Shown here piece by piece: positions 9,770-31,794 of a DNA stretch of 53,562 nt; the stretch's first letter is position 1; each line of letters begins with the position of its first letter. A model generated the notes under the pieces. It was not told where the DNA came from. It was given only the letters and a program-made list of their open reading frames with translations, and searched no databases. The position numbers and the translations under genes are program-made. Source of the stretch: a virus; the IMG/VR virus record IMGVR_UViG_3300010413_000045, positions 1 through 53,562 of that record; one strand, 5' to 3'.

Positions 9770-10517
9770 AATCAGCAAACCCAAAATTAAACTCAGATCC
9801 AAGTATACCATTTTTCACAGAATACTGATTCGCAATAGACACCGCTTCGCAGGGAATTGGCGTCCCGTTCATATCGCACTCACAGCCCCCGCAGTCTCCC
9901 CGGTTGGTGTAGTAATAAGCTATCGCAACGAGCATAGCGTGAATCAACGGCTGTGGTATATCAGTAACGAGAGGCGTTACACCGTCGTAAGTCGTGTATC
10001 CAGCGGTATAAGTCACGCGCATCCTGAACACATTCGCTCTATCAGCATCGAAAGGAGCCGCCTCACGAAGATACACCGAAGCCCATCCCCGCTGTTCTTT
10101 CCGTTCGGTTACATTTTCAAATAACCCCGTTGCCGCCTCCGTTCCTTTATCCAGAGTCTGATAAACACCGTTTGTATCCAAGTACTCGATTATCCCGATA
10201 TCGTCAAGCGACAGGACAGGAGATCGGTTTAACTGTAATTTGACATTAGAATCAAGGAAAGCAGAGAATAGGCCATCTGACAGCTCATATTCGGCAATAT
10301 AGGTCTTACGGCGGAGATCAACCCACATATAATTTTCAAAAGTCTCGACCACCATTTTAATCAGCCGGTCAATAGTGGCCTGATTCCGTGTTTTCTTCTG
10401 GTCGGATAAGCGAAGCCATGAAGCCACATCGTCAACGGTTATAGGGTATCCAGCTGCGACACTGGAAAGATTTGTGATAAGCGGAGAAATTGTAACCGCT
10501 GGATTTTCGTATGACAT
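9768..10517 (-). CDS. Head-tail connector, gp6-like (249 aa)
   Basis: The N-terminus has the phrase ITVDDVASWLRLSD and a following run of helices, typical of HK97 gp6 / SPP1 gp15-type connector proteins; IPQPLIHAMLVAIAYYYTNRG near the C-terminus fits the closing helix of this family. It binds the portal ring in related phages. An unusual Cys cluster (CGGCECD) follows this helix. The gene comes just after the tRNA-Thr on the minus strand. Confidence 0.75.
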   Translation of the reverse strand: MSYENPAVTISPLITNLSSVAAGYPITVDDVASWLRLSDQKKTRNQATIDRLIKMVVETFENYMWVDLRRKTYIAEYELSDGLFSAFLDSNVKLQLNRSPVLSLDDIGIIEYLDTNGVYQTLDKGTEAATGLFENVTERKEQRGWASVYLREAAPFDADRANVFRMRVTYTAGYTTYDGVTPLVTDIPQPLIHAMLVAIAYYYTNRGDCGGCECDMNGTPIPCEAVSIANQYSVKNGILGSEFNFGFAD

Positions 10518-17737: not shown

Positions 17738-19282
17738 TTAGACAGCTGCCCATGAAATCCAGTCGGGGGTGACTTCGGCGCGGCAGATCACATAAGCGTC
17801 CGCAAGGTTTGGTGATTTTGTCCCTTTCGGCTTTTTATCTATCATGAGTTTTCCGGATTTACTGGTCGTGTATTGAGGCTGTGATAATTCAAGTAAAAGT
17901 TTTTCCATCTTCTGGCTTGTTTGCTCACATATGGAGATCAATTCACCGGCTTCATAATCTTTACCGTTCAGAAATCGGTAGGTGTTCAACATTTCATGGC
18001 GGACAGACCACCAAGCTTGAGCTTTGGCGTTTTCAAAGAAATCTTTATTGTTCGTTTCGGCGTAATCCTGATCAGCAGGACGGACAACAGCACCGCCAGA
18101 ATTCCACGGTACAATACGCATTTTTCTGACAGGGTGATTTTCCGGTAAATCTCCGCCCTCTGATGGCATTCTCAAAATCTCTTTTAATCGGACAGCAACA
18201 GCAGCACCAACACCAATCGGGTCATAACGAAACTCTTTACAGCCCATCTCGTGAGCTTTCCAGAAATATTTATCCGTAGCGTCTCCAGGATCTCCCTCTC
18301 CTGATTCATCAGCATAGATAAACTGATTCCCGTCAATAACACAGAATCCATGAGTGTCCCCGCCCTCGTTTGCCGGGTCAAGTGCCGCTATTCTGGCGCC
18401 GTTGATGATATTATCATTCCGTTTAATCGACGATACCCATTCAGGAGGACAGCAGACAGATTCAAGAGAAGCGGCAGCGTTACGCTCAACTTCCTGCATG
18501 AAGATATGGAGCGTTCCTTCTGCTTCGGCTTTGGCTCGTTCAGCGTCGTACCACTCCTGATTGTACATAGGGATTTCCCACCAGTCGAATACGTAGACCG
18601 GATTAACCCCGCTTGTCGTTTTCCTGTAAAAAAGTGTACTAGTCCCGTGATGAGTTGATCCCCAGATCTTACAATCGGCGTTCCGTGATACGGCAGCTTC
18701 AATAGAATCAGCTCGGGGATAAAAAGCGCACTCATCTAGGAAATAAATTGAAGAACGGCCGCCACGCCCTGGAGAGTCCCCGGACTTACCGACGATAATA
18801 GAGCCATTGCGATGATTTTTAACCTGCATCAGCTTATCATCAACGCCCTCAGTGAATAATTTCGGGAGGTGAGCGCAGATAAAAATACATTTTTCAAGTA
18901 ATGTGTCGATATTTCCTTTCTCGTGGCATTCGTCAGCTTTGTACGTGTACATGGAGATCGTGACAGATTCGTGAAACAGGAACAGGAACACAGAAAAAGC
19001 CGCATTCATCCAAGACATTCCAACTCCACGGCATTTATCTACTACACCATCTTCCCGATTGGTATACCGATCCCATAGCCACCGGATATACTCTTCCTGT
19101 TTATCGAAAAGCTCGAAAGGGATAACACGGTCATCAGTCCGGCGCGGGTCCATCGTAAAGCACCAGCGATTGATAAAATCGATAGCCGCTTCTGCCGTAG
19201 GAATATGGTAGGCTTCGTAATATTTTTGTATTTCAGATGGCGAATTGATTAAGTGGGCGCGTTCTGACCAGGGGTGTTTCAT
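17738..19282 (-). CDS. Terminase large subunit, Mu gp28-like (514 aa)
   Basis: The ATPase domain has a Walker A variant in DKCRGVGMSW (about residue 82), then a Walker B segment SSIYFLDECAFY. The C-terminal nuclease domain shows the acidic triad context in AALDPANEGGDTHGF, RYDPIGVGAAV and SPNLADAYVICRA. It cuts concatemeric DNA and pumps it into proheads. The start overlaps the C5 methyltransferase stop by 4 bases (ATGA). The Mu-type subfamily is suggested by the KxRGVGMSW motif and length and is not a proof of Mu-like packaging. Confidence 0.9.
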   Translation of the reverse strand: MKHPWSERAHLINSPSEIQKYYEAYHIPTAEAAIDFINRWCFTMDPRRTDDRVIPFELFDKQEEYIRWLWDRYTNREDGVVDKCRGVGMSWMNAAFSVFLFLFHESVTISMYTYKADECHEKGNIDTLLEKCIFICAHLPKLFTEGVDDKLMQVKNHRNGSIIVGKSGDSPGRGGRSSIYFLDECAFYPRADSIEAAVSRNADCKIWGSTHHGTSTLFYRKTTSGVNPVYVFDWWEIPMYNQEWYDAERAKAEAEGTLHIFMQEVERNAAASLESVCCPPEWVSSIKRNDNIINGARIAALDPANEGGDTHGFCVIDGNQFIYADESGEGDPGDATDKYFWKAHEMGCKEFRYDPIGVGAAVAVRLKEILRMPSEGGDLPENHPVRKMRIVPWNSGGAVVRPADQDYAETNNKDFFENAKAQAWWSVRHEMLNTYRFLNGKDYEAGELISICEQTSQKMEKLLLELSQPQYTTSKSGKLMIDKKPKGTKSPNLADAYVICRAEVTPDWISWAAV

Positions 19283-20373
19283 TTTATCCCTTTAAAAATA
19301 TGACAAATAACGTCTACCGTCCATCCGTCACCGAGGCAAGAATAAATCTGGTTATCTGAAATATCAGCACCTTCAAAAAAATCATCAGGCACTGTTTGAA
19401 GCCTACAGCATTCTATTGGTGTTAACTTCCTTACTCTCATTAAGTCTAGATCGTAAGCTATTGATTGTCTGTCTACCGTATTAAGAGTGTACGACTTGTC
19501 CGGGTCAACCTTCATCCCCATTCCGTTTTGATTTTTGTTTATGAATTGGTCAGAGATTAGATAATATGCCTTGTTGCCAGACTCAACGAGCGTTGCAGCT
19601 TTTCCCTCTATCCCGTATACACGGTTAGTGCTTTGATCTTTTTCGTTTAAATTGAACAGCTTTCCTGATATAAAAGTCCCATTCCATGACTCACTATATC
19701 TTTCCTGCAAAGCCCTGGCCTTTTCTGGGTTTAAATTACAAAACTTTTCATTCTCAAGAATACGCTTTTTTACATATTCCCATGCTTTATCTTTCAGGTA
19801 GTATTTTTCATCAACTTCACTTTCGGGCTGTAAAACATCTTTCAGTAAAATACCTTTATCTTCTGGTTGCTGTATTTCATTTCCAAAAAGATCATCTCCC
19901 AATCCGGGTATGTTTGTCCAATAAATCCGCTTTCTATTCTGAGCAGAAACGAGAGCTGAATTGATTTTTACAGGAAGAACACCAAGACGCCTGGAAATCT
20001 CAATCTCACACTGTTTATCCATTGGTACATTTTCAAGCAAAAATAAAACATCAGGATTCTTTTCCTGCAATTCTTCTAATATTCGGAAATAATCCATTAT
20101 CAATCCTGAACGAGGATCGTCAAAATTAAGACGGTCTCCCATTATAGAAAAACCTTGGCAAGGACTGCCACCTATAAGCATATCAATATCGTAATCATGT
20201 CCGCAAACTTCTGTTACAGATCCGATGTGGATATTGTCTGGATAATAATTTTTACTGGCTTTTATTTTTGATTCGGATATTTCCGAAGCATAGTATTTAT
20301 CAACTTTGATTCCTGATCTCTCAAGAGCTAATCTACCACACGACATACCGTCAAATAAGCTTAATACTTTCAT
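19279..20373 (-). CDS. C5-cytosine DNA methyltransferase (364 aa)
   Basis: Canonical motifs in order: motif I VLSLFDGMSCGRLAL, motif IV with catalytic Cys GGSPCQGFS, motif VI ENVP, motif VIII NRKRIYW, a target-recognition region between about 180 and 300, motif IX RKLTPIECCRLQTVPDDFF, and motif X GDGWTVDVICHI. It should transfer methyl from SAM to C5 of cytosine and protect phage DNA. It lies between TerS and TerL, an unusual insertion. I start at ATG 20373; a TTG at 20379 is in frame but worse placed. The start is preceded by the structured RNA leader at 20374-20455. Confidence 0.95.
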   Translation of the reverse strand: MKVLSLFDGMSCGRLALERSGIKVDKYYASEISESKIKASKNYYPDNIHIGSVTEVCGHDYDIDMLIGGSPCQGFSIMGDRLNFDDPRSGLIMDYFRILEELQEKNPDVLFLLENVPMDKQCEIEISRRLGVLPVKINSALVSAQNRKRIYWTNIPGLGDDLFGNEIQQPEDKGILLKDVLQPESEVDEKYYLKDKAWEYVKKRILENEKFCNLNPEKARALQERYSESWNGTFISGKLFNLNEKDQSTNRVYGIEGKAATLVESGNKAYYLISDQFINKNQNGMGMKVDPDKSYTLNTVDRQSIAYDLDLMRVRKLTPIECCRLQTVPDDFFEGADISDNQIYSCLGDGWTVDVICHIFKGIK

Positions 20374-20455
20374 AGACAAGTCCTTAGTCCTGTAAAATAA
20401 TCTGGATTGGGAGAGAAGGACTAAAACTCTCCCCAGGGTGGCCGCCCTGCCAGAT
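20374..20455 (-). ncRNA. Structured leader upstream of the C5 methyltransferase (three-way junction plus loop-tail pairing)
   Basis: On the minus strand: P1 is ATCTGG (20455-20450) with CCAGAT (20405-20400); P2 is CAGGG, six-base loop CGGCCA, CCCTG; P3 is GGGAGAG, 11-base loop, CTCTCCC; then linker AAT. The tail TATTTTACAGGACTAAGGACTTGTCT leads to the ATG without gap; it is given here in two parts: TATTTTAC, then two tandem copies of AGGACT. TAGTCCT in the P3 loop can pair with either copy, and the second includes the Shine-Dalgarno AAGGA. The leader before gene 30775-31551 has the same layout with different bases but preserved pairing. Confidence 0.75.
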
Positions 20456-20469
20456 ATTGAATAATATCA

Positions 20470-21120
20470 TCAATCGCCGTTATTGTCAGCACCGGAAATC
20501 TTATCAAAGAAAAGTTTCTTCGCTTCTTCGGGAGGGAGATCGGTGTAGTTGATAGTTTTATTTTCGGTTTCCAGTTTGCCCTTAACGGTAATTTCCTGCT
20601 TATCAGTCCACAGTCCACCATGACGGCCCAAAAGCTCAAGGGCGGACTTTTTATCATGAAACTTGATTTCAATAGCTCCCTTTGCGTCCTGCTTAATGCT
20701 GGCAATTCCCCGCCGCTGTTCCGTAGTGAGATTTTTTGTATCGGCAATTTCGACAATCTGCCGAGTTTTGGTTACGGTATCGATTATGTTCCCGTCAATG
20801 TCACGGATGTTCTCTTCATACTCTTCAGTTCTGACATTCACAATATCGGTAATATCGCTTGTGGCTATCGGTATAAGCTCGGAAAGTACTTTATGCCGTA
20901 TTTGAGACTTCATTGCGCCGAGAGACTTGTCCACACATTCGTCTAAATATCTGACCACCTTGTCATTTTTAAGCATACGAGAGGCGGTTGTAGCTGCTGA
21001 TTTCGGACTGTATCCGGCAGCTATGGCGGCATTCGTTTGGTTCCAATCCAGCTCTATGAGTTTATGGCAAAAAGCCTGTTGTTTCGGTGTCAGTGATTCC
21101 ATATTGCTTTTCTTTGGCAT
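20470..21120 (-). CDS. Terminase small subunit (216 aa)
   Basis: The N-terminus LTPKQQAFCHKLIELDWNQTNAAIAAGYSPKSA is the classic TerS helix-turn-helix signature, read here as LTPKQQAFCHKLIE, then AAIAAGYSPKSA; RMLKNDKVVRYLDE follows. The middle is charged and the C-terminus has ITVKGKLETENKTINYTDLPPEEA. It recognises packaging sites and recruits TerL. ATG 21120 is chosen because GGGAGGATTGAAT precedes it; a TTG at 21126 also opens the frame. The methyltransferase gene, not TerL, comes next. Confidence 0.9.
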   Translation of the reverse strand: MPKKSNMESLTPKQQAFCHKLIELDWNQTNAAIAAGYSPKSAATTASRMLKNDKVVRYLDECVDKSLGAMKSQIRHKVLSELIPIATSDITDIVNVRTEEYEENIRDIDGNIIDTVTKTRQIVEIADTKNLTTEQRRGIASIKQDAKGAIEIKFHDKKSALELLGRHGGLWTDKQEITVKGKLETENKTINYTDLPPEEAKKLFFDKISGADNNGD

Positions 21121-21156
21121 ATTCAATCCTCCCTATCAGGATAACGATTTGCATGG

Positions 21157-29107: not shown

Positions 29108-30673
29108 ATGCCACTCCGTCCACACCAACAACGCTTTTCAGAAATATGCCAACAAATTAACGACGGTGCCAAAATTACAGATGTTATAGCATTCGTCGTT
29201 CCAGGTGGAGGAAAATCAACTTATTGCCCGATAGCCTCACAGCTTATTCATGATGATTATACAAAAATATTATGGGTATGCCCGCGAGAATCTCTTATGA
29301 AGCAAGCCGAACAGGGATTCAGAGGAGACGGGATAGTCGATGTCGGAAACCATGATATAAGGCTGGCGAATAATTCGGGAGACGATCCTTTCCGAGGATG
29401 TTCCGGCGCTGTCACATCCTATCAGGGAATTGTCGCACGCCCTGAATATTGGATAAAAATATCTAAGAAATATAAAATTATCCTTTTTCTCGACGAGTAC
29501 GATTCTTTGATCGAAGAAGGGGCATGGTCCGAACCAATAAAGCAGATTTACGGAAACGCTTTTTTTAGGGTATGCGCTACAGGTACAATCGACCGATCTG
29601 ACGAACTGCCTTTACTGTTTACTCCGTACAACGATGACGGATCAATCGATTTCAGAGATACGGAATCAAGAAAGTGGATCATCTACGGCAAAGAGGAATC
29701 AATCCGTGATGGTTCAACAGTACATTTTACAGCCACTCTGATATCAGGATCTGGGAAATATGTCGATCTTGACGGTATAACGAGAAGTTTTAAAAAGTTT
29801 ACCGGGAAAGGTGATGAACTGATTACAGCTTTCCGCACCGACTTTGCCTATCAAATGTTTTTGCTATGCCTGAAAGACTGGAACGAATACAGAAAAGATC
29901 ACCCATGGGCGAAAATAATCATACTGGCAAACAATATTGACATAGCTGAAAAATATAACAGATGGTTCAAAGAAAACGGTTATGATTTTGACATAGCCAC
30001 ATCGGGAGATGAAAAGCTATCAGCTGAAACTATCAGACGTTTTAAAATGCCTAACGGTTATTTCGGAGCGTTAGACGGGATGGTTGGCATCGGCAAGGTA
30101 TATAAGGGCCTTGATATAAAACCGGCCACATTCCTTGTTTTTCTCACTCGCATCCGTGGTAAATCCTGGGTTGATCAGGCGGTCGGAAGGGTTCAGCGGG
30201 CATTCAAAGGAAAGACTGAGGCTTTTGTTTATGCTCCAGATGATCCAAAAATGAGGAAAGTATTACAGGAAATATCAGATTGTGTTATCCGTAACGCCAC
30301 AGCCGACCCACCAGAGAAAAAAGGAACCTACACATCAGATGAAGAAGCCGGACCGGCACGAACTATCCAGGCTTTATACTCAAAAGCAAATATAGACATT
30401 CCTCAACCCGACCTACCGCTAATTACCGAACATCATGAAACTCAGTCCGAGATCGAGAAGAGGCTTAGAGTAGAAATAAATCACACAATATCTAGGATAA
30501 TATCAAAAGAAGATCAAGGTAACATCAAAACAAAACAAAGAATTATATTTATGAGAATAAGACAAATTGTGAATAATGGAAGAGACGAAAATGGCAAACT
30601 TATTAAAAAATCATTTGATGAGATGTCTATAAAAGAGCTTAAAGCTGTTAAGTTATTTGTTGAAATGTTTTAA
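29108..30673 (+). CDS. SF2 DNA/RNA helicase (521 aa)
   Basis: Motif I lies in VVPGGGKSTYCPIAS (about residue 31), motif II is LFLDEYDSL (DEYD near 129), motif III is CATGT near 152, and motif VI is QAVGRVQRAF near 358. The C-terminus is a Lys-rich helical extension. This is a type III restriction-like or UvsW-type ATPase. It probably remodels recombination or replication forks. It stands between the MazG-like gene and an HNH gene. Confidence 0.85.
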   Translation: MPLRPHQQRFSEICQQINDGAKITDVIAFVVPGGGKSTYCPIASQLIHDDYTKILWVCPRESLMKQAEQGFRGDGIVDVGNHDIRLANNSGDDPFRGCSGAVTSYQGIVARPEYWIKISKKYKIILFLDEYDSLIEEGAWSEPIKQIYGNAFFRVCATGTIDRSDELPLLFTPYNDDGSIDFRDTESRKWIIYGKEESIRDGSTVHFTATLISGSGKYVDLDGITRSFKKFTGKGDELITAFRTDFAYQMFLLCLKDWNEYRKDHPWAKIIILANNIDIAEKYNRWFKENGYDFDIATSGDEKLSAETIRRFKMPNGYFGALDGMVGIGKVYKGLDIKPATFLVFLTRIRGKSWVDQAVGRVQRAFKGKTEAFVYAPDDPKMRKVLQEISDCVIRNATADPPEKKGTYTSDEEAGPARTIQALYSKANIDIPQPDLPLITEHHETQSEIEKRLRVEINHTISRIISKEDQGNIKTKQRIIFMRIRQIVNNGRDENGKLIKKSFDEMSIKELKAVKLFVEMF

Positions 30674-30694
30674 TAAAAAATATATAATTTATAT

Positions 30695-30774
30695 ATCAGG
30701 CGGTAGGCATACCGGGGGGAGTTCAACACCTTCTCCCCCAAACCTGATTATTTTACAGGTGTTAGGTGTTGTCT
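30695..30774 (+). ncRNA. Structured leader upstream of the HNH gene (three-way junction plus loop-tail pairing)
   Basis: P1 ATCAGG (30695-30700) with CCTGAT (30743-30748); P2 CGGT, six-base loop AGGCAT, ACCG; P3 GGGGGAG (30715-30721), 11-base loop TTCAACACCTT, CTCCCCC; linker AAA. The 26-base tail begins TATTTTAC and contains AGGTGTT twice. AACACCT in the P3 loop is complementary to both copies; the second is the ribosome-binding site. It is the same fold as 20374-20455 with compensatory base changes. Confidence 0.8.
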
Positions 30775-31551
30775 ATGTCAAATAAAATCTGTTCAGTTGA
30801 TGGTTGTTTTTCTAAAGTTTTATGCAAAGGTTTTTGTGTCAAACACTACCAGAGGAACAAAAGGCACGGAGATCCACTTTATTATGAATACAAATCAACA
30901 TGTTCTATTGATGGTTGTAATAATAAGCATGTTGCTTTTGGATATTGCATGAAACATTATTCAAGGTATAGAAATAATGGAGATGCTAAAATATCTTTAA
31001 TAAACAAAGACCATGATGAATTATGTTCTGTCAATGGATGCAGTAATAAGTATTTCTCTAAAGGTTTATGCAAGAAACATTATGAAAGGTTTAAAAAATA
31101 TGGAGATGTAAATTATACAAAGTTAGGAAGAGATCTTGAATGTCATGGAATGACTAGCTCTCCAGAATATGTATCGTGGAGAGAAATGAAGAATAGATGT
31201 ATAAACAAGAAGTCAAATAGGTATTATAGATATGGTGGCAGAGGGATAAAGGTTTGTGATAGGTGGTTAGAGTCGTTTGCAAATTTCTATGAAGATATGG
31301 GTCCAAAGCCTTTTCCTAAAGCTCAAATAGACAGGATAGACAATGATGGAAACTACGAACCTAGGAATTGCAGATGGATAAGCTTGCTTGAAAATATGCG
31401 TCATACATCTAGAGTAAAGTTGTCTATTGAGAAAGCTAGGAGAATAAGAAGTCTATGTAATAGCGTTTCTACTAAGGATTTAGCTAAAATGTATGGAGTT
31501 TCTGAATCTTTGATATCAAAAGTAATAAAAAACGAAATATGGATAGAGTGA
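30775..31551 (+). CDS. HNH-type endonuclease with three zinc repeats (258 aa)
   Basis: Three consecutive modules follow C-x4-C-x9-C-x2-H-Y-x-R and a Gly-Asp pair: CSVDGC, CSIDGC and CSVNGC begin them at roughly 40-residue intervals. The C-terminal HNH-like region has RYGGRGIKVCDRWL, KAQIDRIDNDGNYEPRNCRW and a DNA-binding tail resembling helix-turn-helix (CNSVSTKDLAKMYGVSESL). It is likely a homing endonuclease or mobile nuclease. The ATG at 30775 directly follows the structured leader; a GTG at 30766 would lie within it. Confidence 0.8.
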   Translation: MSNKICSVDGCFSKVLCKGFCVKHYQRNKRHGDPLYYEYKSTCSIDGCNNKHVAFGYCMKHYSRYRNNGDAKISLINKDHDELCSVNGCSNKYFSKGLCKKHYERFKKYGDVNYTKLGRDLECHGMTSSPEYVSWREMKNRCINKKSNRYYRYGGRGIKVCDRWLESFANFYEDMGPKPFPKAQIDRIDNDGNYEPRNCRWISLLENMRHTSRVKLSIEKARRIRSLCNSVSTKDLAKMYGVSESLISKVIKNEIWIE

Positions 31552-31614: not shown

Positions 31615-31765
31615 GGCAAGGTGGCGAAATTGGTAGACGCCGTTGACACCTTTAACGAAAATGCTGGGGATATGAGCCATCCGCCTGAACCGAGTGGTGT
31701 AGGTCACATAAAGTGGGTAATGCTGATCCTTAACCGGCTTGTAGGTTCGAGTCCTGCCCTTGCCA
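31615..31765 (+). tRNA. tRNA-Leu-like gene with an oversized central region
   Basis: Acceptor GGCAAGG pairs perfectly with CCTTGCC; the D arm GCGAAATTGGTAGACGC is the tRNA-Leu type; the T arm is GTAGG-TTCGAGT-CCTGC; discriminator A. The region between D and T arms is 100 bases rather than about 32-35 for tRNA-Leu, so about 65 bases are extra. I cannot place the anticodon with confidence; the clear arm CGTTG-ACACCTT-TAACG has no U33. It may be a tRNA with insertion or a tRNA mimic. Confidence 0.55.
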
Positions 31766-31794
31766 TCACTATATTTTTATTAAGCGAGGTATTT

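Follow-up and report, generated by a model that had tools for sequence, protein, structure and literature searches.

An apparently undescribed family of structured leaders in front of phage genes for HNH endonucleases and a C5 methyltransferase

Results

Two structured leaders and their genes

The window, i.e., the whole stretch of 53,562 nucleotides of viral DNA that was analyzed, contains two structured leaders, each of which ends at the start codon of a gene for a DNA-acting enzyme. Leader A belongs to a gene for a C5 cytosine DNA methyltransferase, which sits between the genes for the small subunit (20470-21126) and the large subunit (17738-19282) of the terminase and whose stop overlaps the start of the large-subunit gene by 4 nt. 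The features of this locus are:

19279-20373, minus strand: gene for the C5 cytosine DNA methyltransferase (Pfam PF00145, E 9.6e-37; PHROG 116)
20374-20455, minus strand: leader A, a three-way junction of the stems P1, P2 and P3 followed by a 26-nt tail up to the methyltransferase ATG
20374-20399, minus strand: tail of leader A, 26 nt, with copy 1 (AGGACTA) and copy 2 (AGGACTT)
20416-20426, minus strand: P3 loop of leader A, TTTTAGTCCTT, complementary to both tail copies
20461-20489, minus strand: predicted sigma-70 promoter, CTGACA-17-TATTAT, for leader A; its end lies 5 nt upstream of P1 (shuffle P 0.003)

The stems of leader A are P1 ATCTGG/CCAGAT, P2 CAGGG/CCCTG with the loop CGGCCA, and P3 GGGAGAG/CTCTCCC, which is joined to P1 by the linker AAT. 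Copy 2 of the tail is the Shine-Dalgarno sequence, 8 nt from the ATG.

Leader B belongs to an HNH endonuclease gene. The encoded protein has N-terminal Cys/His finger repeats and an HTH-like C-terminal end, and it is of the free-standing homing-endonuclease type. The features of the second locus are:

30660-30688, plus strand: predicted sigma-70 promoter, TTGAAA-17-TATAAT, for leader B; its end lies 6 nt upstream of P1 (0/3000 shuffles)
30695-30774, plus strand: leader B, a three-way junction of P1, P2 and P3 followed by a 26-nt tail up to the HNH ATG
30722-30732, plus strand: P3 loop of leader B, TTCAACACCTT, complementary to both tail copies
30749-30774, plus strand: tail of leader B, 26 nt, with copy 1 (AGGTGTT) and copy 2 (AGGTGTTG)
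30775-31551, plus strand: gene for the HNH endonuclease (PHROG 3377, E 2e-41; alignment of relatives)

Here P1 is ATCAGG/CCTGAT, P3 is GGGGGAG/CTCCCCC and the linker is AAA; copy 2 is again the Shine-Dalgarno sequence, 8 nt from the ATG. The original prediction had assigned an identical geometry to both leaders. This was borne out for the stems, the loops, the linker and the 26-nt tail, with the exception of P2 of leader B, which had been drawn with 4 pairs and a 6-nt loop and is better drawn as CGGTA/TACCG, i.e., with 5 pairs and the 4-nt loop GGCA.

The two leaders can be aligned over their full length up to the start codon with a single length difference, of 2 nt, in P2. The similarity ends at the start codon, and the downstream genes, for a C5 methyltransferase and an HNH endonuclease, are unrelated. 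A search of the window for additional copies revealed only A and B, and their closeness suggests that one was copied from the other within the lineage.

Further members of the family

A covariance model was built from leaders A and B alone (R1) and was run over loci selected for encoding proteins related to the HNH endonuclease. It matched at three further loci, on other phage contigs, namely L049 (442-523, identical to L050; E 2e-9), L051 (2420-2503; E 1.7e-7) and L045 (2425-2509; E 6e-5), and each of these leaders extends to the start codon of a gene for an HNH endonuclease. Four of the five distinct members thus precede HNH genes and one precedes a C5 methyltransferase gene. L049 contains two HNH genes, the first with the leader and the second, located 9 nt behind an SSB-like gene, without it. 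The compensatory changes between A and B, from which a common fold had been proposed, are therefore joined by three covarying homologues.

Several searches delimited the family. In a scan of viral and genome contigs for the exact tail words, the matches were of coding type or lacked structure, apart from L044/L125, a 99.5% identical phage, and a pattern search based on P1 found nothing beyond L049/L050 and L051. No leader was detected by blastn with the leaders A, B, L049, L051 and L045 against 50,697 phage records, nor by blastn with leader A against plasmids. Scanning of 160 loci of HNH relatives with R1, and in part with a second model (R2), yielded no members beyond the five, a pseudoknot descriptor search added none, and there was no match in eight HNH regions of sequenced phages of record. 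The members score 71-94 bits with R2, which was built from those same members, while the best score in 299 Bacillota genomes was 27.8 bits and none of the hits fitted the fold. In Rfam 15 no family was above the gathering threshold and a relaxed search gave chance hits only, in line with the earlier proposal of a new leader. In summary, the leader is a real and apparently undescribed cis-regulatory RNA family, which is narrow in the collections searched, as the viral scans, the Bacillota genomes and the phage blastn gave no more members.

The fold is conserved by covariation

The cores of A and B each fold on their own into a tight three-way junction with 6 pairs in P1, 5 in P2 and 7 in P3, and this fold is the MFE or the centroid structure for all five member cores. 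The folding z-scores are -2.4 for the core of A and -4.0 for that of B. The 18 stem pairs of the five members comprise 90 cells, all of which hold standard pairs, and 11 of the 18 pairs show two-sided changes, e.g., P3 GGGGGAG/CTCCCCC versus GGCTGTG/CACAGCC. Neither value was matched in any of 5000 column shuffles. These counts were made on stems that were set by hand, because MAFFT misplaces P1 and P3 in divergent members, and they lean to the proposed structure, into which the cores also fold alone; the covariation comes from only five distinct members, of which A and B are close to each other.

The few stem pairs that depart from Watson-Crick pairing are without exception G-U when read on the sense strand, and the molecule under selection is thus most likely the sense RNA, rather than DNA or an antisense RNA. 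The P2 loop (CGGCCA, GGCA or TAGCT) and the linker between P3 and P1 (AAT, AAA or TTTA) vary among the members. A role of the leader as a coding extension was rejected: an in-frame upstream start is present in L049 and L045, but leader B contains an in-frame TAG.

Loop 3 is complementary to two tandem tail segments

The loop of P3 (loop 3) contains CCTT in every member, and in all five it is complementary to two tandem tail segments of the type AGGNNNN, the variable bases of the loop changing in step with both segments. The pairing of loop 3 with copy 1 comprises 8, 7, 8, 7 and 6 bp in A, B, L049, L051 and L045, respectively, and that with copy 2 comprises 7, 8, 11, 6 and 4 bp, the last value rising to 8 with G-U, on which the copy 2 pairing of L045 depends. 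The loop-tail complementarity claimed for A and B was thereby recovered, with 8 and 7 pairs in A and 7 and 8 pairs in B. The summed pairing of the five members was not reached in any of 20,000 trials with prefix-shuffled loops. A loop-to-tail permutation test has low power; of its 120 arrangements none beat the true pairing, which shared the top rank.

That the second of the tandem segments is the Shine-Dalgarno sequence had been proposed for A and B and holds for all five members, at a distance of 7-8 nt from the ATG. By sequence complementarity, the Shine-Dalgarno sequence can base-pair inside the leader in every member. Copy 1 lies too far upstream to work well as a Shine-Dalgarno sequence. 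According to a crude estimate, which considers free duplexes only, the two registers lie less than 3 kcal/mol apart in each member and the sign of the difference is not consistent: copy 1 gives the more stable register in A and L051, and copy 2 in B, L049 and L045.

A predicted promoter ends directly upstream of the structure

In all five members a sigma-70 promoter with a 17-nt spacer is predicted that ends 5-6 nt before P1, and thus the transcript is predicted to begin at or next to P1. The sum of the promoter scores is 53, compared with a mean of 32 and a maximum of 41 for 3000 shuffles (0/3000 joint). Because the promoter is upstream of P1 in all five cases, the predicted transcript keeps the whole structure, without an internal late promoter arrangement. 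A promoter-like match on the antisense strand of A and B was rejected as a candidate, as its -35 element (TAGACA) is absent in L049.

The leaders appear to travel with inserted genes

Across the virion genes, the window phage is related to the phages G001 and G003. G001 has neither the methyltransferase gene nor the HNH gene at the respective sites: its terminase subunits overlap by 4 nt, other sequence follows the helicase, and an R1 search of G001 found no leader. At the terminase site of G003 there is a different gene, for an HNH/AP2 protein, which overlaps the large subunit by 4 nt and has a different structured upstream region. L051 is likewise a relative of the window, and its HNH gene lies between terminase and portal. 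Two further contigs (G008 and G009) have little or nothing in common with the window apart from the HNH gene, which argues that leader and HNH gene travel together. These comparisons suggest that the leader and the inserted gene are acquired jointly and pass from phage to phage.

The junction between the small and the large terminase subunit was observed as an insertion site with three states, i.e., the methyltransferase gene (window 19279-21126), an HNH/AP2 endonuclease gene (L135 4478-6004) and no insert (L133 5546-7539). Both inserts overlap the start of the large subunit by 4 nt.

Other structured regions

Upstream of the HNH/AP2 gene (L135 5180-5311) a stem AGTTCAGG/CCTGAACT was seen, the interior of which contains CTTCAG and TTCCTG complementary to the Shine-Dalgarno region CAGGAAACTGAAGG; this is a different leader with the same principle. 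The regions upstream of other HNH genes, in L046/L047, L052 and L054, are structured in unrelated ways, with a stem TGGACGC/GCGTCCA that has a loop CCCCC..ACTCAG facing a tail CTGAGT..GGGGG, and with a stem CCCCGG/CCGGGG. These sequences suggest that structured leaders may be common in this class of HNH genes.

In addition, the window contains a tRNA-Leu-like element of about 150 nt at 31616-31768 (plus strand; GGCAAGGTGGCGAAATTGGTAGACGCC ... GGTTCGAGTCCTGCCCTTGCCA) with acceptor, D and T arms, which is missed by both ARAGORN and Rfam. G001 has such an element at the same place, in a shorter form of about 117 nt (L246, about 9985-10101, minus strand).

Discussion

A and B are probably members of a mobile cis-regulatory RNA family in which loop 3 forms a pseudoknot with either of two tandem segments and thereby controls translation. 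Transcription would start from the sigma-70 promoter at the first base of P1 or right beside it, and the leader of about 80 nt would fold as a three-way junction that presents the P3 loop as an internal anti-Shine-Dalgarno sequence. Loop 3 would then form a pseudoknot with one of the two downstream AGGNNNN segments: on copy 2 it would hide the Shine-Dalgarno sequence and block translation, and on copy 1 it would leave it free. In this way an inserted DNA-acting enzyme, which can be an HNH endonuclease or, in the window, a C5 methyltransferase as well, would be translated at a low level or at a set time. As a best guess, the register would be set by competition between the ribosome, the timing of transcription and RNA folding, without a ligand. 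The comparison of the members supports the fold, the covariation, the member-specific complementarity of loop 3 to both copies, the position of the predicted promoter and the co-travel with HNH genes. We infer from it that the pairing forms in the cell, that it represses translation and that both registers are used. Control of the Shine-Dalgarno sequence by loop 3 is the likeliest function, and switching between the two registers is plausible.

The structure could instead be static, guarding the transcript against decay that depends on the 5'-end and/or fixing a low level of translation, with copy 1 as a spacer or a spare Shine-Dalgarno sequence. The stable core indeed begins at the predicted +1, and simple hairpins that hide the ribosome binding site are the documented form in T4-type homing endonucleases (PMC2988022), but a simple repressor would not need the complementarity of copy 1 to loop 3, which is kept in all five members, and this explanation is rather unlikely, though worth keeping in mind. 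Two-register control of translation is moderately favoured over a fixed clamp, since both registers are possible in every member and nearly degenerate. Selection of the register by a metabolite, as in a riboswitch, or by a protein bound to a translational operator would have a precedent in the operator of T4 gene 32, where a pseudoknot in a phage leader takes part in translational control (PMC3014915). It is improbable here, as the differences in the P2 loop and the P3/P1 linker among the five members leave no invariant ligand core, Rfam gave chance hits only even at relaxed thresholds, and the target genes are mobile and not metabolic. For SAM or SAH in particular, a role as ligand is unlikely because the unpaired parts have no conserved aptamer-like core.

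It is very improbable that the hairpins act in DNA, be it as a cruciform, as the end of a mobile element or as an operator whose half-sites form inverted and direct repeats. In favour of this reading, the module moves along with HNH genes, its tail has direct repeats and its loop an inverted one, and A and B carry the antisense promoter-like match; against it, the half-sites of A and B differ within the same phage, the wobble pairs are G-U on the sense strand only, the fixed spacing to promoter, Shine-Dalgarno sequence and ATG fits an mRNA leader, and L049 lacks the TAGACA of the antisense promoter. Flaviviral xrRNAs contain a three-way junction, and their loop 3 pairs downstream of P1. The order P1-P2-P3-P1' followed by a pseudoknot between loop 3 and a downstream segment is the same topology, and a ring that blocks exonucleases and shields the downstream mRNA could be imagined. 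This appears similarly far-fetched, because the predicted 5'-end is at P1 itself, so that no strand would be left to thread, and because the pseudoknot covers the Shine-Dalgarno sequence. Position, sequence and expected function differ from those of xrRNAs, and no homology is claimed.

A more specific version of two-register control is speculative and on balance improbable, namely a ligand-free switch that times mobile DNA enzymes and was copied onto the methyltransferase and the HNH gene with opposite balance, so that modification would precede cutting. The crude duplex estimate favours copy 1, i.e., a free Shine-Dalgarno sequence, by about 1.5 kcal/mol for the methyltransferase leader, and copy 2, i.e., a hidden one, by about 2.5 kcal/mol for the nuclease leader. 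If true, the opposite balance of the two switches would resemble a dispersed restriction-modification pair.

The put RNAs of HK022 are antiterminators that consist of two simple hairpins, act on RNA polymerase and do not pair with a Shine-Dalgarno sequence; what they share with the leader family is a structure at the +1 of phage transcripts, which is a predicted +1 in the present case. In T4 and Aeh1, RNA structure is known to limit the translation of homing endonucleases: I-TevI/II/III, segB and Aeh1 mobE have RNA hairpins that sequester the ribosome binding site (PMC2988022, PMC3014915). Like these, the present family consists of leader RNAs of phage homing-type endonucleases that could hide the Shine-Dalgarno sequence. 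The T4-type hairpins pair with it directly, whereas here a three-way junction and a loop-tail pseudoknot would do so and the target segment is duplicated. The late promoter of I-TevI is positioned so as to yield late transcripts without the inhibitory structure (PMC2988022), in contrast to the predicted promoter upstream of the whole structure found here, and the T4-type leaders serve endonucleases, whereas one copy here is on a methyltransferase gene. T4 gene 32 also has a leader pseudoknot for translational control, but that one is located about 67 nt ahead of the start codon and serves to nucleate the binding of gp32 (PMC3014915), whereas the pseudoknot partner in the present leaders would be the Shine-Dalgarno sequence itself. 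The leader family was not found in a search of the open-access literature, and, as far as could be found, the new features are the architecture, the placement of the promoter, the tandem copies, the distribution over unrelated phages and the use for a methyltransferase.

For a homing endonuclease gene to spread, its expression has to be tolerated, and little is known about the means by which this is achieved outside of T4-like phages. A self-contained promoter and leader that moves with HNH genes among unrelated phages would be a portable governor of expression. The tandem Shine-Dalgarno copies offer a compact system, of about 80 nt, in which to test whether a single RNA loop selects one of two partners.
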